Shown: positions 140 through 31,754 of the stretch, piece after piece
Layout: each line of letters starts with the position of its first letter
Position numbering within the stretch: the first letter of the stretch is position 1
Assembly (NCBI GenBank): GCA_016937155.1
Contig: JAFGWM010000017.1
Span: 1-39,321, forward strand
Direction: 5' to 3'
Source: Deltaproteobacteria bacterium
GTDB lineage: Bacteria; Myxococcota_A; Polyangia; HGW-17
DNA: 39,321 bases
Program-made: the position numbers and the translations under genes
The notes under the pieces: generated by a model
What the model was told of the DNA's origin: nothing
Databases searched by the model: none
What the model saw: only the letters and a program-made list of their open reading frames with translations

Positions 140-808
140 ATGCCTAAAACAGAACCATTTGATAAATACAGCGAAGAGTATGATGAGTGGTTTAAAAAGA
201 ACGTTGAACTTTATGAGGCGGAACTGGAAGCCATCCGACAACTTATTCCTTCTCGTAGATCGAAAGGAATGGAAGTAGGTATTGGCTCAGGAAAATTCGC
301 TGTACCACTCGGGATTAAAATAGGAGTTGAGCCATCAGAAAATATGGCAACGAAAGCAAGAATGCAGGGGATCGAAGTTTATTCCGGCATAGCGGAAAAA
401 TTGCCATTCTCTGACGGCAAATTTGATTATGTACTGATGGTAACAACCATCTGTTTTGTTGACGATGTTGCCAAATCTTTAAAAGAGGCTTTTCGGGTAT
501 TGAAGACTGGCGGATATATTATTGTTGGATTTGTAGATAGAGAGAGTGAGCTTGGAAAACAGTATTCTGAAAAGAAAGAAAACAGTAGGTTTTATAAAGA
601 TGCCACCTTTTTCTCAGCGCAAGAGGTGCTAAGATACTTAAAAGGATCGGGTTTTGTAATTTCGAATGTTTTACAAGCCCTTATTACTGGAGAATCACCC
701 AATACCGTTTTAGAAAGTTTCGGAAGAGGCTCTTTTGTCGCAATAAAGGGGATAAAATCGGTTAACAAGGCTAATGCAGCCGACGCAAAAAGCAGCGCGG
801 CTGATTAG
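140..808 (+). CDS. Class I SAM-dependent methyltransferase (Methyltransf_11 type), integron cassette gene
   Basis: A 222-residue protein with a Rossmann-type methyltransferase fold. Motif I is GMEVGIGSGKF (about residues 43-53), the acidic end of strand 2 is GVEPS, motif II-like FDYVLMVTTICF is near residue 95, and the post-II segment has LKTGGYIIVGF. It probably transfers a methyl group from SAM to a small molecule; the substrate cannot be read from the sequence. The start at 140 is supported by GGAG at 127-130. The stop codon lies inside the attC site, so the last 15 or so residues (Ala/Asp/Ser-rich, ending KSSAAD) are attC-encoded and unlikely to be part of the fold. Small methyltransferases are common integron cassette cargo. 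Its ATG is about 40 bases from the candidate left recombination core. Confidence 0.85.
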   Translation: MPKTEPFDKYSEEYDEWFKKNVELYEAELEAIRQLIPSRRSKGMEVGIGSGKFAVPLGIKIGVEPSENMATKARMQGIEVYSGIAEKLPFSDGKFDYVLMVTTICFVDDVAKSLKEAFRVLKTGGYIIVGFVDRESELGKQYSEKKENSRFYKDATFFSAQEVLRYLKGSGFVISNVLQALITGESPNTVLESFGRGSFVAIKGIKSVNKANAADAKSSAAD

Positions 809-819
809 CGAAGTTAGCC
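760..819 (+). other. attC: Integron attC site (59-base element)
   Basis: Sixty bases with the full attC architecture. The outer boxes GGTTAAC (760-766) and GTTAGCC (813-819) pair over 7 bp with one G-T wobble. Unpaired spacers follow (767-769 and 810-812). The inner stem pairs GCTAAT (770-775) with ATTAGC (804-809), CAGCCG (777-782) with CGGCTG (798-803), and CGC (784-786) with GCG (795-797). Bases G776 and A783 are extrahelical on the same arm, and the loop is AAAAAGCA. The inner AGCCGACGC / GCGCGGCT halves match the well-known attC of aadA cassettes, as I recall that sequence. Integrase cleavage would fall between G813 and T814. The site belongs to the methyltransferase cassette and marks the left edge of the reverse transcriptase cassette. 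Confidence 0.9.
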
Positions 820-843: not shown

Positions 844-2331
844 ATGACCTCTACAGTTAATTTCTTCGAGACCGATTTTCCTGCCACGCTGTTCCCACTG
901 AAGACCAATTTGCTTTTGGTAAAGGAACACTCTGCCGAGCTTTCGGATTACATCTATCAGCGCGTGCTCAACCCTGGTTGCGAGGCGGACAAGTTCTTGC
1001 CACAGCATCGTGTTTACGCCACTAAGCCACGGGGGCATCTGCGTCGCACGGTCAAGCTAGATCCAGTTGCAGAGTTCTTTATCTACGATATTTGCTATCG
1101 AAACAAAGCAATTTTTCGTCCTGAAGTCAGTGCGTCTCGGAGAAGTTTCGGTTACAGGTTCAAGAGCGGCGCACGAATTCCAGTCCACGTGGCATATGGC
1201 GAATACAAAGAGCACCTTCGAAGTAGTGCAACAAAGTACAAGCACAACATTCAGTTTGATATCGCTTCATATTTCAACAGCTTGTATCACCACGACGTCT
1301 GTCACTGGTTCGAGTCAAAAGACAATGTGACGGAAACCGATGCTAAAGGCCTGAATCAATATTTCAGGGAAATTAATGCAGGCCGTAGCGTTGATTTCAT
1401 GCCGCATGGCATCTATCCGACCAAGATGCTTGGTAACGAATTCTTGAAGGTGGTCGATCTTAATGGTCAACTTAAATCAGCAGAGGTTGTCTGATTTATG
1501 GACGACATCACTCTGTTTGATGACAACCCAACAAAGGTTCGTGCCGACTTTTCTCGTATTCAGCAATTACTTGGTCAATTTGCGCTGAACATAAATCCAT
1601 CTAAGACCGCTTTCGACAACTCGGTCGGTGGTGTGAATGATACCCTCAGTCAGATTCGGCAATCTCTTAAGGAAATTGTCACAGAATATGAGGAGGTTCC
1701 GACCGCTTCAGGGGTAGAGCTTATTGAAACTGATGTAATTGTCGATAAAGACCTCGATTCCGGGCAAGTCGACGCGCTCTTGGGGCTGCTTAAGGACGAG
1801 GAGTTGGAAGAGTCGGATGCTGACTTAATCCTGGGCTTCCTTCGATCTCACAGCGATAGCTTGCTCGATCATCTACCGACCTTGCTCAGTCGGTTTCCAA
1901 ATCTAATCAAGCATGTACACACGATTTGTTCAGGCATCACAGAGAAGCCGGGTCTAGTCGATGTACTTCTTCAGTTTTCGAACGACCACGACGATTTGCT
2001 GGAGTATCAATTGTTTTGGATGGGCTCGATTGTAGAAGACTACTTGCTTGGGGCAGAGAATTATGGGGCATTGCTGACACGCCTTTTAGAGCTGTCTGCA
2101 GACCATAAGATTGCGAGAGCCAAGATTTTGGAGATTCCAGAGCAAGGTTTCGGATTGAAGGAATTTCGAAGCTGTTATCTCAAGACGGGACAGTCTGATT
2201 GGTTGTCCTGGTCATCGGCGGCTGGCACTAGAACCCTCAAGGCCGGAGAGCGGAATTACGTTCTGAAGTATTTTTCAAACGCTTCCCAGATGAACTTTTT
2301 GGTTGCCAGTTGCATGAGTAAGTTCGCATAA
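844..2331 (+). pseudogene. AbiA/UG-type (defence-associated) reverse transcriptase, interrupted by an in-frame TGA at the catalytic motif
   Basis: Two halves lie in one frame: 844-1494 (216 codons) and 1498-2331 (277 codons), separated only by TGA (1492-1494) and TTT. Joined they give a protein of about 495 residues. Visible reverse transcriptase motifs are motif A with FDIASYF, motif B-like GIYPTKMLGNEFL, motif C F-M-D-D (the MDD opens the second half), and motif D LNINPSKTAF. After about residue 270 the protein is all Leu-rich amphipathic helix pairs, like the HEAT-like or alpha-repeat tails of AbiA and other UG reverse transcriptases. No maturase or retron-specific domain is seen. A single CGA to TGA change (Arg just before FMDD) would explain the stop. 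TGATTTATG might allow reinitiation, but the second product would start with the catalytic Asp pair. The start has GCGGAAG upstream and lies 30 bases after the attC cleavage point, so the gene looks like a cassette. Codon use is richer in G/C than downstream genes, suggesting transfer. The UG subfamily is not identified. Confidence 0.78.
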
Positions 2332-2661: not shown

Positions 2662-3058
2662 ATGAAAAAAGATCCACCAAGTATGAAAAAACACAAGAAT
2701 TAAACTAATTACTTCTGGGAAAAAATCAGCAGAAAACGATCAGGAAATGGTTTCGTTACTAATCAAATTTGGGAAAAGAGTAACTTCTACAGAAAGTAAT
2801 GGAGACAGAGCAGGAGGAAACACTTGGCAGAACTAGATATGAACGCTCAGATGAAGAAGCAAAGGGCTATAGAAATGGATATGAAGACCGGAAAGTAAAG
2901 ACAGCAGAAGGAATAATAGATGTATCTGTTCCGCAGATAAGGGTACTTGAAAGCCCGTGGTTACCGGCAATATGGAAAAATATAGCCCAGCGCAGTAAGG
3001 CATTGGAAGATATTATATGTGAAATGTGGGTGAGAGGCATACGTGTCAGGGATGTTGA
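2662..3058 (+). pseudogene. Remnant of an IS256 (Mutator)-family transposase, N-terminal part, frameshifted
   Basis: Three frames in succession give one recognisable transposase N-terminus. An ATG at 2662 with AAGGAG upstream encodes a short KKHKN peptide. From about 2702 the next frame reads KKSAENDQEMVSLLIKFG. From about 2785 the third frame reads QKVMETEQEETLGRTRYER, then GYRNGYEDRKVKTAEG, VPQIR and MWVRGIRVRDVE. The order (LGR.RYER, GYRNGY, VKT.EG, VP..R, M.VRG...RD) is typical of IS256-family transposases. The frame is broken at least twice and similarity stops at about 3058, before the DDE catalytic core, where the G-rich repeats begin. It cannot encode an active transposase. Confidence 0.7.
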
Positions 3059-3061
3059 GTT

Positions 3062-3316
3062 TGAGGGAAAAGGGTCAGGGAATCAGGAAAACAGGGAAAA
3101 GGGAAAAGGGAACAGGGAATCAGGGAACAGGGAAAAGGGAACAGGGAACAGGGAACAGGGAATCAGGAAAACAGGAAACAGGGTCAGGGGCAGGAAAACA
3201 GGGAGCAGGGTCAGGGAATCAGGGAACAGGGAATCAGGAAAACAGGAAACAGGGTCAGGGGCAGGAAAACAGGGAACAGGGTCAGGGGCAGGAAAACAGG
3301 GAGACAGGGGGGGGCG
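3062..3316 (+). repeat. G-rich degenerate minisatellite (GGGAACAGGGAATCAGG type)
   Basis: About 250 bases of interspersed short units such as GGGAACAGGGAATCAGG, GGAAAACAGG and GGGTCAGGGGCAGG, almost pure purine on this strand, with dozens of GGG runs. The longer block built around CAGGGAATCAGGAAAACAGG recurs several times, for example near 3165 and 3230. The array starts where transposase similarity ends and stops 4-5 bases before the stop codon of the downstream minus-strand gene. It reads open in two frames only because of its composition and is not taken as coding. It has high G-quadruplex potential on this strand. Confidence 0.85.
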
Positions 3317-5269: not shown

Positions 5270-7216
5270 ATGGACGAAATAAGACTCAAAACAATCAGAC
5301 AGATCAGGATGCTCTGTGGTGAAATAATACAGAAGGCTTCAAGTGGTCATCCAGGTTTACCCCTGGGTGCTGCTCCTATGGCGTTTTCACTTTTCAACGA
5401 TCTTATGAAATATGATCCATCACAACCACACTGGGTTGACAGAGACAGGTTTGTTCTGAGTGCAGGTCACGGAAGTTCTCTTATTTATACGATGCTTTAT
5501 CTTTATGGATATGATGTAAGTCTTGAGGATCTTAAATCATTCAGACAGCTGGGAAGTAAGACTCCGGGACATCCTGAATACTGGTGTCTGCCTGGAGTGG
5601 AAACTGCCACGGGACCTCTGGGTGCGGGATTTTCAAATGCAGTGGGAATGGCTTTAGCTGAAAAAAGACTTAATGCAAAATTTGGTAGTGATGTTTTCAA
5701 CCATCGCACCTGGGTTTTAGCCAGTGATGGTGATATGGAGGAAGGCATTTCAAATGAGAGTGCTCAATTTGCAGGTGCCATGAAACTTGGAAAACTTTGT
5801 GTACTTTATGATTCAAACGATATCAGCATTGAGGGTGATACCAGAGTTACATTTAATGAAGATACTGCTGCCAGATTCAGGGCAATGGGATGGTATGCCG
5901 AAGTGATCGACGGTGAAAATCCTGATAATGTGACAAGTGCTGTTGAAAAGGCGTTTTCTGAGAATCCGGATGTTCCGAAACTTATAGTCTGCAGGACTGT
6001 TATTGCCAGAGATGCCATTGGAAAGGAAGGGAGCGCCTCAAGTCATGGAAGTCCCCTTGGTGAGGATGTGCTCAGTGCAATGAGGAAAAACTACGGATAT
6101 GAAGGTTCATTCCATCTGGATAAGGATGTTTTAGAGTTTACATCTCTGGCAGGGAAACGGGGTCAGAAAAATAATTCTGAATGGAGTGAGAAATTCGATA
6201 TCTGGAAAAAGCAGAATCCTGAGGAGTACAGAATTTTTAAGAAAATGCAAAACAGGGAATACGATGATATTTCATGGCCTGAATGGGAGGTCGGCTCAAA
6301 AGAAGCCACCAGAAAATCAGGTGGAATAGTTTTAAACACTTTAGTTGATTATTATCCTGCTCTGTGTGGTGGAAGTGCTGATCTCGCACCATCAAACAAC
6401 ACCTGGATAAAGAAATTTGAAGCAATGACCGCAGATAATCCATCAGGGGGAAATATTCATTTTGGAATCAGGGAACACGCAATGGGTGGTATTGTCAACG
6501 GGATGGCACTCCATGGTTTTCATCATTCATTCGGTGCCACATTTTTGGTTTTCTCAGATTATATGAGAGGTGCAATAAGGTTGAGTGCCATTATGAATCT
6601 GAAAGTGACCTGGATTTTTACCCATGACAGTTTTTACGTAGGAGAGGACGGACCCACCCATCAGCCGGTTGAGCATATTGATGCTCTCAGGCTTATTCCA
6701 GGCTTAAAGGTGATTCGTCCTGCAGATGGAAATGAGATTGTAGCTGCATGGAAGTTTATTCTTGATTATCAGGGCCCGGTTTGTCTAATTTTATCAAGAC
6801 AGAACCTTGAGGCACTAAAAGACTCCAGTCGCGAAGTTGATGATCTCAGGGGTTACAGTGTTAAATCTGTGAATGAACCGGCAATTCAGATATTCAGTTC
6901 CGGAAGTGAAGTGTCTCTGGCACTTCAAACGGCGGATATTCTGGAGAAAGATGGTTTATCCACTGAAGTCATCAGTGTTCCCATGCTGGATCTTGATGAT
7001 ACAAAAGCCATGGAAGACCTTGCAGGAAAATGTAGTGGACTTAAAGTTGCGGTGGAAACTGCAACCACAAGATTATTCGCAGGATTTGGAATAAAACACC
7101 GGATAGGTATGACTACTTTCGGCGAAAGTGGAAAAGCCTCTGAAATAGCTCAGCACTTTGGTTTTACACCGGAGAAAGTAGCAGAAAAAATCAAATCATT
7201 AATCTCCTTAAATTGA
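5270..7216 (+). CDS. tkt: Transketolase
   Basis: 648 residues, close to the usual length of about 650-670. It transfers two-carbon ketol units between sugar phosphates in the pentose phosphate pathway, using thiamine diphosphate and a divalent metal. Visible motifs are SGHPGLPLGAAPMA (residues 25-38), TGPLGAGFSNAVGMA, the ThDP/metal motif DGDMEEGISNE, the Pyr-domain FGIREHAMGGIVNGMA with the catalytic Glu, and DGPTHQPVEH. The N-terminal PP, central Pyr and C-terminal domains are all present. The start at 5270 has GGGAG upstream. It heads a tight run with cyclophilin (15 bases downstream) and RNase HI. Confidence 0.95.
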   Translation: MDEIRLKTIRQIRMLCGEIIQKASSGHPGLPLGAAPMAFSLFNDLMKYDPSQPHWVDRDRFVLSAGHGSSLIYTMLYLYGYDVSLEDLKSFRQLGSKTPGHPEYWCLPGVETATGPLGAGFSNAVGMALAEKRLNAKFGSDVFNHRTWVLASDGDMEEGISNESAQFAGAMKLGKLCVLYDSNDISIEGDTRVTFNEDTAARFRAMGWYAEVIDGENPDNVTSAVEKAFSENPDVPKLIVCRTVIARDAIGKEGSASSHGSPLGEDVLSAMRKNYGYEGSFHLDKDVLEFTSLAGKRGQKNNSEWSEKFDIWKKQNPEEYRIFKKMQNREYDDISWPEWEVGSKEATRKSGGIVLNTLVDYYPALCGGSADLAPSNNTWIKKFEAMTADNPSGGNIHFGIREHAMGGIVNGMALHGFHHSFGATFLVFSDYMRGAIRLSAIMNLKVTWIFTHDSFYVGEDGPTHQPVEHIDALRLIPGLKVIRPADGNEIVAAWKFILDYQGPVCLILSRQNLEALKDSSREVDDLRGYSVKSVNEPAIQIFSSGSEVSLALQTADILEKDGLSTEVISVPMLDLDDTKAMEDLAGKCSGLKVAVETATTRLFAGFGIKHRIGMTTFGESGKASEIAQHFGFTPEKVAEKIKSLISLN

Positions 7217-7231
7217 AGGAAAGGAAAAATT

Positions 7232-7711
7232 ATGGAAAGAGCAGTAATAAGTACAAAATTCGGAAAAATCACGGTATCTTTTTTCCCGGATAAGGCACCG
7301 GGCCACGTTAATAACTTTATGACTCTTGCAAAATCCGGTTTTTATGATCAGACTATTTTTCACAGAGTGATTTCCGGTTTTATGATTCAGGGGGGATGCC
7401 CCAATTCAAAACCAAATGCAAAGGGAACTCCTGGAACAGGTGGTCCAGGCTACAATATCGATGCTGAATTTAATGATGAAAGTCATGTGAGAGGTATTGT
7501 TTCCATGGCCAGATCAAGTGATCCCAACAGTGCAGGCAGTCAGTTCTTTATTGTTCATCAGGACAGTAAGTTTCTTGATAAAAACTATACAGTTTTCGGT
7601 AAAGTAACTGAAGGAATGGATGTTGTGGATCAGATAGCTGAATTACCCACAAATTCCAAGGATGCTCCACGTGACCGCATTGAAATGACCGTTGAAATTC
7701 TTGAAGACTGA
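7232..7711 (+). CDS. ppiB: Peptidyl-prolyl cis-trans isomerase, cyclophilin type
   Basis: 159 residues, a single cyclophilin domain without signal peptide, so cytoplasmic (PpiB-like). It catalyses proline peptide-bond isomerisation during protein folding. Motifs are FHRVISGFMIQGG (catalytic Arg in FHRV), MARS.DPNSAGSQFFI and the C-terminal YTVFGKVTEGMDVVD. AAGGAAAGG precedes the start. It lies 15 bases after the transketolase gene and 7 bases before RNase HI, and is likely cotranscribed with both. Confidence 0.93.
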   Translation: MERAVISTKFGKITVSFFPDKAPGHVNNFMTLAKSGFYDQTIFHRVISGFMIQGGCPNSKPNAKGTPGTGGPGYNIDAEFNDESHVRGIVSMARSSDPNSAGSQFFIVHQDSKFLDKNYTVFGKVTEGMDVVDQIAELPTNSKDAPRDRIEMTVEILED

Positions 7712-7718
7712 TTAAAAT

Positions 7719-8159
7719 ATGACCTCAACAATTACTGTATATACTGATGGCGCATGCAGTGGCAATCCCGGTCCTGCAGGTCTGGGTGTTGTTTTATCAA
7801 ATGGCAGTATAAAGAGGGTTATAAGTGAATATCTTGGCTCTTCCACAAACAATATAGCTGAACTTACAGCTATACTCAGAGCACTTCAGGCTGTTAAAAA
7901 TAAAAAAGCTGAAGTTCTTATACACACAGACAGTTCATACAGCATAGGTGTACTGTCCAAAGGATGGAAAGCAAAAGCCAATGTGGAACTTATAACTGAA
8001 ATCAGGCTGCTTATGACATCATTTCCCAGACTGAGACTCATAAAAGTTGAAGGTCACAGCGGTGTGGAAGGGAATGAGGAAGCTGATTCTCTTGCAAGAG
8101 AGGCTGTGGAAAACCGTAAAAACCGTGATGAGTATATTTCATTGAATTCCACCAGTTAA
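7719..8159 (+). CDS. rnhA: Ribonuclease HI
   Basis: 146 residues, standard length. It degrades the RNA strand of RNA-DNA hybrids during replication. The catalytic carboxylates are all visible: D10 (YTDGACSGNPG), E48 (NNIAELTAIL), D71 (IHTDSSYS) and D123 (EEADSLA), with H113 in VEGHSG. No N-terminal hybrid-binding domain is present. The Shine-Dalgarno is weak, and translation may be coupled to the upstream cyclophilin gene 7 bases away. Confidence 0.94.
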   Translation: MTSTITVYTDGACSGNPGPAGLGVVLSNGSIKRVISEYLGSSTNNIAELTAILRALQAVKNKKAEVLIHTDSSYSIGVLSKGWKAKANVELITEIRLLMTSFPRLRLIKVEGHSGVEGNEEADSLAREAVENRKNRDEYISLNSTS

Positions 8160-13207: not shown

Positions 13208-14941
13208 ATGGGACACATAAGATTTATTTTTCTGTTTTCTGTAGTTTTAATGGTTTTTTCCGGTTGTGATGATTCTTCAGATACAAACCATTGCGGAAAT
13301 GGTGTGATTGACACAGGTGAAGAGTGTGATGGTAATGATACCGATGGTGTTACCTGTCAGTCTCTTGGATACGTCACCGGTAATGTCAGTTGTGCAGATG
13401 ATTGTACCTTAATAGTCAACTGCACCGGAAGCTGTGGGAATGGAGAGACCGAGGAAGGCGAGGACTGTGACGGAGATGATATTCCTGTACCTGAGTGTGC
13501 GGATCTCCCCAACAGACACTATGTTGGTGGTAGTGTAGGCTGTAATAATGACTGTACTCTTGATCTGAGTCAGTGTGAAAGCTGTGGAAACAGTATAGTT
13601 GACGAGGGTGAAGACTGTGATGGTGCGGTTATGCCAGAGACAATGTGCAGCGAACTCGCCGGAACAGGTTATTATGAAGGCAGTCTAAGTTGTGGAAGTA
13701 ATTGTCTTTATGATGTCTCCGAATGTAATTCCTGTGGAAATGGCGTCAAGGATGACGGGGAAGAGTGTGATGGTGATGATTTTGGTGAATTATCCTGCGC
13801 AGACTACAATCTGAGAGGTGGAAGCCTTTCGTGTAACTCCTGCAGTGTTGATACAAGCGGATGTTTTCAGTCATTTGCCGATATGAGTGTTGGTGCCTGG
13901 CATGGCTGTGGTATTGATAACTATGGTGATATCTGGTGCTGGGGTTTAAATGAAGCTGACCAGACAGGGACTGGGATAATTGAATCTGAGATTGTAGTTC
14001 CTTCAAAAGTTTTATCAACCGAAGTCACATCTTTTGCAAAAGTCAGTGCCGGGGCCTATCATTCATGTGCTGTTGACATTCAGGGAAAAATCTGGTGCTG
14101 GGGTGCTGATCCTGAAGTTGCTACAGTGAGTATTGCTGTTCGGGTTAATACTCCTGATGAGGTTATTTTTACAGACGTTGGAAGTGGTGCTGTTTTCACA
14201 TGTGCTCTCGACACTCTTGGAGGAATTTGGTGCTGGGGACAAAACGGCTGGGGGCAATTGGGTGTGCCACTTTCCACTACTACACTTAATGAACCCACAA
14301 AAATTGAAACCGGTATTTTATTCAGTTCAATTTCTGTTGGAGCTTATCACGTCTGTGCCACTGATACAGCTGGAAATGCATGGTGCTGGGGACGTAATGA
14401 TCAGGGTCAGTCGGGAAGTGGATCATCCGAAACCAGGCTGATAAATCCAACTGAAGTAGATATGCCCCCTGCCACGGATTTTGTGACAATACAGGTGGGA
14501 GGTTACCATTCCTGTGCCCTGAATTCATCCGGAAGTGCATGGTGCTGGGGAAGAAATACCTACGGTCAGGTGGGCAACGGAGAATTCGGTAGTGATATTG
14601 ATAATCCTGAATCAGTGGATAATGGAATAGCTTACTCATGGATAAAGGGTGGTGGTGAATTACACACCTGTGGTGTTGATACAGCCGGCAAGCTTTGGTG
14701 CTGGGGTGGTAATACGTATGGTAATCTTGGTGATGGAACCACTACTCCTGCATATTCCCCAACTGAAGTTGATATAGAGAATGTTCTCTTCACCAGAGTT
14801 TACCCCGGGAATAATTACACATGTGCCCTTGACGATACTGGAGCCGCATGGTGCTGGGGCAATAATGGATACGGCCAGCTTGGCAATTCAACTCTGGAAA
14901 ATTCATATTATCCTGTTCCAGTAAATATGCCCGTTGAATAA
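13208..14941 (+). CDS. Lipoprotein with four CGNG cysteine repeats and seven RCC1-like propeller repeats
   Basis: 577 residues. A signal peptide ends with FSGC (lipobox Cys at about 21). Next come four Cys-rich repeats of the type CGNG.ID.GE.CDG, each with a following C..C..DC segment (residues about 30-215). These are common on Myxococcota surface proteins. The C-terminal half has seven RCC1-like repeats of about 50 residues, each centred on HSCA.D..G..WCWG...YGQLG, enough for a seven-bladed propeller. Every blade carries two conserved Cys. It probably binds a partner outside the cytoplasm, which is not identifiable. The start has GGGAG upstream. Confidence 0.85.
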   Translation: MGHIRFIFLFSVVLMVFSGCDDSSDTNHCGNGVIDTGEECDGNDTDGVTCQSLGYVTGNVSCADDCTLIVNCTGSCGNGETEEGEDCDGDDIPVPECADLPNRHYVGGSVGCNNDCTLDLSQCESCGNSIVDEGEDCDGAVMPETMCSELAGTGYYEGSLSCGSNCLYDVSECNSCGNGVKDDGEECDGDDFGELSCADYNLRGGSLSCNSCSVDTSGCFQSFADMSVGAWHGCGIDNYGDIWCWGLNEADQTGTGIIESEIVVPSKVLSTEVTSFAKVSAGAYHSCAVDIQGKIWCWGADPEVATVSIAVRVNTPDEVIFTDVGSGAVFTCALDTLGGIWCWGQNGWGQLGVPLSTTTLNEPTKIETGILFSSISVGAYHVCATDTAGNAWCWGRNDQGQSGSGSSETRLINPTEVDMPPATDFVTIQVGGYHSCALNSSGSAWCWGRNTYGQVGNGEFGSDIDNPESVDNGIAYSWIKGGGELHTCGVDTAGKLWCWGGNTYGNLGDGTTTPAYSPTEVDIENVLFTRVYPGNNYTCALDDTGAAWCWGNNGYGQLGNSTLENSYYPVPVNMPVE

Positions 14942-20578: not shown

Positions 20579-22666
20579 TTACTCTTCATACTGAATAATC
20601 AGTTGCGCACCACCTGAATTACCGGAAATATATGGCATGATCCGCAGGAAATATGGACCACCGGCAGTCAGTTCATGGGAAGTTGTAACCGTCGAACCTA
20701 TTCCGGGTGCAGACTGTGTGATACACATGTATGGAGAAATCATACAGTCAGTTCCACCTGCACCGAATCCCAGTTCCATTGCCCCCTCAGAAAAATTTTC
20801 AGGAAGCAGTTTTAATCTTATTCTTCCGCTCTGGGATAGATTGAAGGTGAAAGTTCTGCCTGTGTTTGACATGTTGAGTGGAGTACACGGAGTTTCGAAA
20901 TCTTCTTCAAACTGATTAAAATCAACGGTGTAACCAATTGGAGAAAGATGGGTGAGTTCCCCTAAAAAGGTTGTTTCAGTGCAGCCACTGGTTATACATG
21001 CATCGGTCAGATTGCAGTCCGGATCACTGCAGTCTGTATATCCGTCAAGATCATTATCAATGTCATCATGGCAATATGATTCTCCTGCACAGAATTGACT
21101 TTCAGCACAATCAGGATCATCACAGTCCGCAAGTCCGTCTCCATCATCATCTTCGTTGTTGGCGCAAAGCTCATCCAAGGGAGAGGTTATTTTAACAGTG
21201 AAACTGCCAGTGCCGCTTCCCTGATCAGTGAGAGCATCTGCAATAATATAGTATTTCCCAGGGGGAATATTATGTTCTGTAAGGGTCAGTGGCATGTTAA
21301 TGCCCTGTGGTTCAACGCAGTGGAAAACACCCTTATCACAGTTTCCCGGACTGCGCTGTGCCAGACTGAGTGCGTGATAACCGGTCTGTGCCATTGTTAT
21401 CTGAATATTAATATACTCTGAAGTCTCAAATGCCACCACATAGTCGCTTCCGGTTCCTCCACATGAAGTACTGAACCTGTTGGTCGTGGATTCAGTTGAA
21501 AAAGTATGAACTACTTCACTTCCTCTTCCGAGAACACCTAAAAACGCGTAATATATACATTCACCTTCAGTGCAATAGGAATCTCCCAGACAATCGGGGT
21601 CTTCACAGTCGATGTATCCATCAAGATCTTCATCGGTGGATGTTCCACAAATTTCAGGCGGAGCGCACTGCGTCAGGCAGTCAGGATCTTCACAATCCAC
21701 AAGGGAATCTCCATCATCATCGATTGAATTATCACAGATTTCATCTGAACATACGGCAAGTGTTTCACAATCCGGGTCTTCACAGTCTACAAGTAAATCC
21801 CCATCATCATCCCAGTTATTATTACAAATTTCCAGCATTGGTTCAGTTGCTTTTAGGGTAATATGCAGTTGGGTGTCAGAAGATATAGCCAGACGATAAT
21901 AACCAGGGGGAAGAGGATTTTTTACAAAGAGCACTGTAGAATCCTGTGTGACCTTCATACAGTCCAGATAATCCCACATACAACTTACATCATGTTCTTC
22001 TTCTCTAAGTAGCTGGACAGCAACATCAGAAACTTCTTCATCAGAGATTATCTCGATTGATATGGCCTCTGAAGCGTGGAAAGCCAGAGTGGAAAATGAA
22101 CCTGAAGAAATATCACAGTTGTTCAGTATACTTTGTGTTCCTGCTTCAATAGTTACTGAAGTTGAAAATCCCGGTGCTATTTCATCTGTAATACGCAATG
22201 AAGGATCACATCCCCCACAGATGGGATGATTCTGACATAGAACATCATCACAGTCTGTGTTTCCATCAAGGTCATTATCCTTTCCATCAGTGCAGTCTTC
22301 TGGCTCAACACACCAGGGAGATAGTGCACATTGTGGATCATTGCAGTCAGTCAGGCCGTTTTCGTCATCATCATAGCCATTTGAGCATATCTCACCTTGA
22401 CAGTATTCACTTTCAGCGCATTGTGGATCAAGACAGTCAATAAACCCGTTCAGATCGTCGTCCTGATTGTTATTACATATTTCAGTGTATTCAATATTAC
22501 AGTTGACATCACATCCGTCACCGGAAACGAGATTACCATCATCACACTGTTCAAGACCCTGAATTTTACCGTCTCCACATACAGTTGAAACCTTCACTTC
22601 ATCCGGTGTACATGAAGTAACTGCAGTAAATATCAAAGTTGCTGTGAATATCAGAAATAATCTCAT
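20579..22666 (-). CDS. Lipoprotein with CGDG repeat and eight MopE-like Asp-rich Cys repeats
   Basis: 695 residues from the ATG at 22666; an upstream TTG six codons earlier is less likely. The signal peptide ends VTSC (lipobox). A CGDGKIQGLEQCDDGN (DUF4215-like) repeat is followed by three and then five copies of C.N..DDD.DG..DC.DPDC, an Asp-rich, calcium-loop-like Cys repeat known from MopE-type and Myxococcota surface proteins. Between them are three copies of a beta-rich domain of about 110 residues that ends with Y-containing strands (PPGYYRLAI, PPGKYYIIA, GGPYFLRIM), like bacterial pre-peptidase C-terminal domains. It is probably an outer-surface binding protein. TATAAT (22681-22676) ends 9 bases before the ATG and no Shine-Dalgarno is present, so the mRNA may be leaderless. 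Confidence 0.8.
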   Translation of the reverse strand: MRLFLIFTATLIFTAVTSCTPDEVKVSTVCGDGKIQGLEQCDDGNLVSGDGCDVNCNIEYTEICNNNQDDDLNGFIDCLDPQCAESEYCQGEICSNGYDDDENGLTDCNDPQCALSPWCVEPEDCTDGKDNDLDGNTDCDDVLCQNHPICGGCDPSLRITDEIAPGFSTSVTIEAGTQSILNNCDISSGSFSTLAFHASEAISIEIISDEEVSDVAVQLLREEEHDVSCMWDYLDCMKVTQDSTVLFVKNPLPPGYYRLAISSDTQLHITLKATEPMLEICNNNWDDDGDLLVDCEDPDCETLAVCSDEICDNSIDDDGDSLVDCEDPDCLTQCAPPEICGTSTDEDLDGYIDCEDPDCLGDSYCTEGECIYYAFLGVLGRGSEVVHTFSTESTTNRFSTSCGGTGSDYVVAFETSEYINIQITMAQTGYHALSLAQRSPGNCDKGVFHCVEPQGINMPLTLTEHNIPPGKYYIIADALTDQGSGTGSFTVKITSPLDELCANNEDDDGDGLADCDDPDCAESQFCAGESYCHDDIDNDLDGYTDCSDPDCNLTDACITSGCTETTFLGELTHLSPIGYTVDFNQFEEDFETPCTPLNMSNTGRTFTFNLSQSGRIRLKLLPENFSEGAMELGFGAGGTDCMISPYMCITQSAPGIGSTVTTSHELTAGGPYFLRIMPYISGNSGGAQLIIQYEE

Positions 22667-22747
22667 AAAGGCAGTATTATACAAAATGTCATATTGTCAA
22701 TTGAATGAATCACTTCTGAAATTTGCATAAAGTTCCGGCAGGTGGAA

Positions 22748-31061: not shown

Positions 31062-31754
31062 TTACATGCTGAATGGCGGGAGACAGTATGTTGCAGTATC
31101 CGAGCTCATTGGAATCGTGGAACAGTCGTATTCAGTTCTGCATTCTGAAGCATTCTCACATGGCTTAAGGCAGTAATTGGCCATCATTGCATTAACACAT
31201 ACTCCGCCCTCATCAGCACAGATGTCGGTTGATGCTTCAGGATCGCATTCAGTTGTACAGTAACCTCCAGGAAGAGTGATAAACCCTGAAAGATCTGTCA
31301 TACATGTTGCTTCTGTGTCACCGATATCATTACACTGCGAGCTATCACCACAACCACTTCCGACACTTCCATCACCTTCGACTGTGCACAGGGAATAGTT
31401 GATAGTTAAGCAGTCACTGCTGCATGAGAGTGTACCACCACTGTAACCGGCAGATTCACAAGTGACATCACCAAAGTTAGTACCATCACATACTTCTGAT
31501 GTATCAACAGTTCCATTTCCACAATCTGGAGTGGTGTTATTTGTTGTGTTATTTGTTGTGTTGTTGGTCGTATTGTTTGTTGTGTTATTTGTTGTGTTGT
31601 TGGTCGTATTGTTCGTGGTGTTATTTGTTGTGTTGTTGGTTGTATTGTTTGTTGTGTTATTGCTTGTATTGTTGCTTGATGAAGAACTGTCGTCATCGCA
31701 ACCCATTGTAAAAACAGAAAAAATGAAAAAAATTATCGCAAAACCTGTTCTCAT
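31062..31754 (-). CDS. Lipoprotein with (NNTT)n stalk and Cys-rich domain
   Basis: 230 residues. The signal peptide ends FTMGC (lipobox Cys19), then DDDSSSSS, then 12 tandem NNT(T/S) units (about residues 28-75) forming a likely unstructured stalk. The head has one CGNG.VDTSEVCDG repeat with C..AGY.GGTLSCSSDC, then a disulfide-rich domain of about 110 residues (CGDSSQCND, GGYCTTECD, CADEGGVC, YCLKPC). Similar stalked Cys-rich lipoproteins occur on Myxococcota surfaces. Function is unknown. GGAGG precedes the ATG. Confidence 0.78.
   Translation of the reverse strand: MRTGFAIIFFIFSVFTMGCDDDSSSSSNNTSNNTTNNTTNNTTNNTTNNTTNNTTNNTTNNTTNNTTNNTTNNTTPDCGNGTVDTSEVCDGTNFGDVTCESAGYSGGTLSCSSDCLTINYSLCTVEGDGSVGSGCGDSSQCNDIGDTEATCMTDLSGFITLPGGYCTTECDPEASTDICADEGGVCVNAMMANYCLKPCENASECRTEYDCSTIPMSSDTATYCLPPFSM
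31533..31676 (-). repeat. Tandem 12-bp repeat encoding the NNTT stalk
   Basis: Twelve 12-bp units in frame. On the plus strand the units fall into three classes, TGTGTTATTTGT, TGTGTTGTTGGT and CGTATTGTTTGT, and the trio recurs about three times, giving a 36-bp higher-order period. Copies differ mostly at synonymous positions, so the amino acids stay NNTT while the DNA drifts. Length change by slippage or recombination would alter only the stalk length. Confidence 0.85.

Follow-up and report, generated by a model that had tools for sequence, protein, structure and literature searches.

The drt5 gene of the window (the whole 39,321-nt stretch of DNA that was analysed) is very probably a Drt5 cassette that was recently inactivated by a single nonsense mutation at an invariant arginine ahead of the catalytic FMDD motif, in an integron that is itself decaying. 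The letters at 1489-1503 read GTC TGA TTT ATG GAC, which places an in-frame TGA at 1492-1494, immediately 5' of TTT ATG GAC GAC (F-M-D-D).

The interrupted reading frame and its family

The frame that runs from the ATG at 844 to the TAA at 2331 comprises 496 codons and contains a single internal stop. Motif A (FDIASYF, residues 138-144) and the motif-B region (GRSVDFMPHGIYPTKM, residues 180-195) lie 5' of the TGA, and FMDD (residues 218-221) follows directly 3' of it. The meeting of two halves of the same family at one stop and in one frame cannot be chance. Thus, the first-pass annotation was correct in stating that the two halves share one frame with the TGA as the sole interruption, that the stop separates motifs A and B from motif C, and that the gene is an antiviral-type reverse transcriptase. 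It had also derived the stop from a CGA codon by a C to T change; this gained no special support, since the arginine codons of the homologues vary (AGA, AGG, CGT) and indicate no particular ancestral codon.

When read through the stop, positions 844-2331 are predicted to encode a full-length Drt5 (UG16-type) antiviral reverse transcriptase. The read-through sequence scored 645 bits against NCBIfam NF041750 (cut-off 550) and matched the PADLOC Drt5 model at 8e-211, and the drt5 of the window departs from the continuous open reading frame expected of Drt5 by the TGA at 1492-1494. Scored singly, the halves remained under the NF041750 cut-off of 550 (319 and 303 bits). They covered the models in register, at 1-209 and 212-484 of 484 positions in NF041750 and at 1-216 and 219-492 of 493 in PADLOC Drt5, and in the profile search no family fitted either half better than Drt5. 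Motifs A, B and C (FMDD, of the form xxDD) aligned with those of seven homologues; no PDB chain matched the gene.

The intact Escherichia coli Drt5 (WP_001524904.1) was 66% identical to the window copy over 494 residues, followed by an intact Cupriavidus plasmid Drt5 (62%), the copies of Acinetobacter and of the genomes G714 and G663 (53-64%), and those of Roseovarius and Phaeobacter (40%). The E. coli and window genes are alike in motifs A, B and C and in the C-terminal domain. In contrast to the E. coli gene, the window copy carries a nonsense codon at the arginine before FMDD and yields no single full-length product, and it is a predicted integron cassette, whereas the E. coli copy adjoins a relaxase gene.

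Purified DRT5 proteins synthesise DNA by a template-free, protein-primed reaction (PMC13275509), and an intact relative of the window gene would be expected to make DNA in the same way; the defence mechanism of DRT5 is not yet established according to a review (PMC13213688). The predicted product of the interrupted gene is a 216-aa fragment that would contain the fingers and motifs A and B. This fragment lacks the catalytic Asp pair and would therefore be inactive, and template-free, protein-primed DNA synthesis would not be expected of an enzyme that ends before FMDD.

Cassette context of drt5

From its surroundings, the drt5 of the window is predicted to be an integron gene cassette (Table 1). 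The sequence at 760-819 has the R'' (GGTTAAC) and R' (GTTAGCC) elements, 3-nt unpaired spacers, one extrahelical G and an apical loop, so that R, L, the unpaired spacer, the extrahelical base and the loop of an integron attC are all present. Its DNA fold reached -19.4 kcal/mol (z -5.2), a value equalled by none of 200 shuffles, and in the attC scan it scored 18.0, whereas no score above 14.5 arose from 10 shuffled windows. A scan of other sequence, about 0.53 Mb of strand-bases, gave an equal score once, at an unrelated perfect palindrome. The stop codon of the methyltransferase gene falls within this attC, and a cassette attC that overlaps the end of the preceding gene is the usual arrangement.

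Table 1. Features of the window around drt5
Feature	Position	Strand	Evidence or remark
attI-like region and contig end	1..105	.	bases 1-66 identical to C55:1-66 (reverse)
First cassette, class I SAM-dependent methyltransferase, 222 aa	140..808	+	Pfam Methyltransf_11, 65 bits
attC, 3' end of methyltransferase cassette and start of drt5 cassette	760..819	+	fold and attC scan
drt5 (antiviral reverse transcriptase) pseudogene	844..2331	+	full-length frame, one in-frame stop; NF041750, PADLOC Drt5
In-frame TGA replacing Arg ahead of FMDD	1492..1494	+	Arg in 9/9 homologues
ATG of FMDD, the only close reinitiation start	1498..1500	+	conserved coding Met in homologues
Decayed Mutator-family (IS256-like) transposase fragment, 3' of drt5	2799..3065	+	Pfam Transposase_mut

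A first-cassette junction, GTTAGGT, was found at 99-105. The contig that shares the terminal 66 bp, C55, carries a truncated integron integrase gene (C55:86-616, +) that starts twenty bases past the overlap and is oriented away from the array; the adjacency of integrase and array is given by this exact 66-bp contig overlap and not by continuous sequence. The 176-residue product ends in the N-terminal SAM-like domain, the catalytic domain being absent, and it matched positions 2-51 of 315 of TIGR02249 (8.6e-8) as well as PF13495 (5.4e-11). A complete integron integrase above the cut-off was not found in the host genome. On the other side of drt5, the Transposase_mut match (51 bits) covered profile positions 38-121 of 379. 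The overlap, the attC and the gene positions therefore give the order truncated intI, attI-like region, methyltransferase cassette, attC, drt5 and decayed transposase. Neither the fold nor the scan revealed an attC-like site after drt5 at 2330-2450, and therefore just one side of the drt5 cassette is proven. A loose attC repeat pattern run on the host genome gave nothing useful.

Several other observations were made in this region and further along the window. The contig break at the 66-bp overlap beside the truncated integrase may reflect variant cassettes in the population. A degenerate, purine-rich tandem repeat (AGGGAAC-like, with periods of 7, 29, 36 and 71 nt) follows the transposase remnant at 3064-3309. 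The regions 13208-14941, 20579-22684 and 31062-31754 encode several lipoprotein-like proteins in which CGNG..DxGEECDG or DDDxDGxxDCxDPDC motifs recur, and a 12/36-nt tandem repeat at 31534-31674 encodes an Asn-Thr repeat tract.

Drt5 was not found in 95 related genomes, and no further Drt5 above the cut-off occurred among 284 genomes of the host phylum, which indicates that the gene was horizontally acquired. The G+C content of drt5 is about 46%, compared to about 40% for most of the contig read, and its arginine codons are mostly CGN, whereas the host prefers AGA. A phage origin was considered and rejected; the phage records contained no match, and one intact copy was present in a viral contig. 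We propose that drt5 would have arrived in the host as an integron gene cassette, and that a single nonsense mutation at the arginine ahead of FMDD would then have knocked it out, recently. The loss may have been tolerated because the gene, stranded as a cassette in an integron whose integrase is dead, was weakly expressed or weakly selected.

Preservation of the gene and competing readings of the stop

All nine homologues examined have arginine at the position of the stop, and none has a stop there; they come from E. coli, Cupriavidus, Acinetobacter, Roseovarius, Phaeobacter, G714, G663, Symbiopectobacterium and an IMG/VR entry (L071). The first-pass annotation had proposed to check whether homologues carry arginine or a similar residue before FMDD, without a stop, and the alignment showed that they do. 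Depending on the homologue, pN/pS was 0.21-0.46 in the N-terminal half of the window drt5 and 0.22-0.59 in the C-terminal half; pN/pS is quoted in place of dN/dS because synonymous sites are saturated in these comparisons. At 142 otherwise invariant positions the window copy has 9 deviations, the stop included, and the other copies have 0-11. A random point change in this frame would create a stop in about 4% of cases, and the presence of one stop and no frameshift therefore points to little neutral drift. Ordinary pseudogene decay had been outlined as uninterrupted homologues combined with a drifting copy: the homologues do lack a stop at this position, but the rest of the window copy bears no mark of prolonged decay (pN/pS 0.2-0.6). 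As the rest of the gene is well kept, the lesion is either recent or an assembly error.

An assembly or base-call error, in which the true codon would be arginine and the gene an intact Drt5 cassette, is an unlikely explanation. In its favour, a single substitution would account for everything in a gene that shows no other damage and is under purifying constraint. The host genome is also a draft assembly, in 85 contigs, and the contig end at bases 1-66 shows that the assembler ran into ambiguity close by. Substitution errors are rare in assembled contigs, and the integrase and the transposase in the vicinity are also truncated, which fits a decaying region.

We consider it very improbable that the gene encodes a split reverse transcriptase, in which the stop would end an N-terminal subunit, reinitiation at the ATG at 1498 would give the catalytic half, and the two halves would assemble. 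The closely coupled TGA TTT ATG, a weak Shine-Dalgarno-like GAGG 11 nt 5' of this ATG and the conservation of both halves would be in accordance with such an arrangement. However, no homologue is divided at the FMDD position, and the GAGG is drawn from codons that vary among the homologues. The first-pass annotation had pointed to reinitiation at the ATG after the stop, but this ATG is the conserved methionine of the catalytic motif in the homologues and therefore not an evolved start. Reinitiation is possible in principle, and positive support for it was not obtained. The break would also fall within the motif C hairpin and remove its Phe. In the fold of reverse transcriptases, a split at this point would separate the first hairpin strand from the catalytic Asp pair, the two lying on different chains. 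An AlphaFold2 model (3 sequences, pLDDT 47, low confidence) likewise placed the stop in the first strand of this hairpin.

Equally slight is the chance that the UGA is read through or recoded, either as selenocysteine or by means of a suppressor tRNA. A lone UGA in an otherwise conserved frame would suit this reading; against selenocysteine, the homologues have Arg and not Cys at the UGA position. No tRNA-Sec scored above the Rfam cut-off in the host genome (best 42.6 bits versus 47). The loci of the best candidates are ordinary Ser, Leu, Tyr, Gly, Thr, Cys and Arg tRNAs with normal anticodons, and a UCA-anticodon (opal-suppressor) tRNA was absent among these best tRNA-Sec candidates, a set narrower than the full tRNA complement of the genome. 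The RNA around and after the UGA showed no unusual fold in comparison to shuffles (z 0.25, 1486-1545). A changed genetic code was rejected, TGA being a normal stop that terminates 4 of the 22 frames of at least 200 aa in the window. Neither of the marks of a recoded gene, a decoding tRNA or a stop conserved among homologues, was found for the drt5 of the window. It is also highly doubtful that Drt5 is kept near-silent, with the UGA and the ATG giving low-level readthrough or a separate catalytic half, so that the dose of an enzyme toxic in its active state would stay minimal within an integron defence bank.

The drt5 pseudogene of Candidatus Symbiopectobacterium (L002) is 70% identical to the window gene across the first 368 residues, and both are stopped by a TGA shortly 5' of FMDD. 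Unlike in the window, the TGA of this gene hits another residue, ten codons 5' of FMDD (5620-5622), and is accompanied by a frameshift and a TAG. These differences mark it as a case of independent and further advanced decay. A conserved recoding site was accordingly rejected, the Symbiopectobacterium stop near FMDD being a different lesion among several.

Of the options left by the first-pass annotation, very recent inactivation is thus the best supported, while a split or recoded enzyme lacks support, nine of nine homologues having arginine and no stop at this position. Our best reading places the loss of a banked cassette first, as the highly probable explanation, and a sequence error second, with the split and the recoded enzyme sharing the last place.

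Drt5 among attC sites in other genomes

Two other genomes have drt5 beside attC sites. In G663 (L062), drt5 lacks its first ~30 codons and is followed by an attC at 7911-7980 and then by more cassettes, whose attC sites lie at 7571-7640, 6975-7041 and 5682-5769. The cassette array in this locus (G663:C38, 3305-9504) includes an EamA-like transporter, a GNAT-like gene and small unknown genes. The cut end of this drt5 carries CTTAAGTAAGTGCCATTC, a possible insertion-sequence end of which contig C50 has a near-repeat at its start. In G714 (L061), drt5 is intact, with an attC on its upstream side (7792-7875) and, judged by eye, an attC-like sequence following it; the neighbours of drt5 at G714:C2, 5609-8713, are a GNAT acetyltransferase and a two-gene unit of unknown function. 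An integron integrase above the curated cut-off is encoded in G663 as well as in G714, in each case on a contig other than that of drt5, and a search for end-to-end overlap of the G663 contigs bearing drt5 and intI found none. A short integrase-like match in a further genome (G068, L070) was rejected as not a convincing integrase.

Integrons are known to store anti-phage cassettes, which mostly lie at a distance from a promoter and are weakly expressed (PMC12409362). The window resembles the Vibrio chromosomal and mobile integrons described there in having a defence gene behind an attC and a second cassette alongside; it differs in its defence type (Drt5), its truncated integrase, the lack of a recognised attC 3' of the gene and the broken state of the defence gene. 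Pseudogenes make up nearly one third of all integron integrase genes (PMC2426708). In class 2 integrons, one internal stop likewise silences an integron gene whose frame is otherwise preserved, but there the stop lies in the integrase gene intI2, whereas the window has its stop in a cassette gene, next to a truncated integrase gene on the overlapping contig (PMC2426708). Our literature search, which reached few subscription papers, found no report of Drt5 in an integron.

The Drt5 family itself was already known, and the new element of this analysis is the integron context of the window gene, which the first-pass annotation had missed. Automated defence finders may score the two halves of such a dead gene as a system, which calls for caution. 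The stop in the window drt5 represents ordinary gene loss, and the main point is the recurrent integron context: three unrelated genomes have Drt5, a single-gene reverse transcriptase of about 1.5 kb, among attC sites, and two of the three copies are damaged. The picture of the integron as a 'defence bank' is thereby extended to a defence reverse transcriptase, and the damaged cassette copies suggest that banked Drt5 genes decay.
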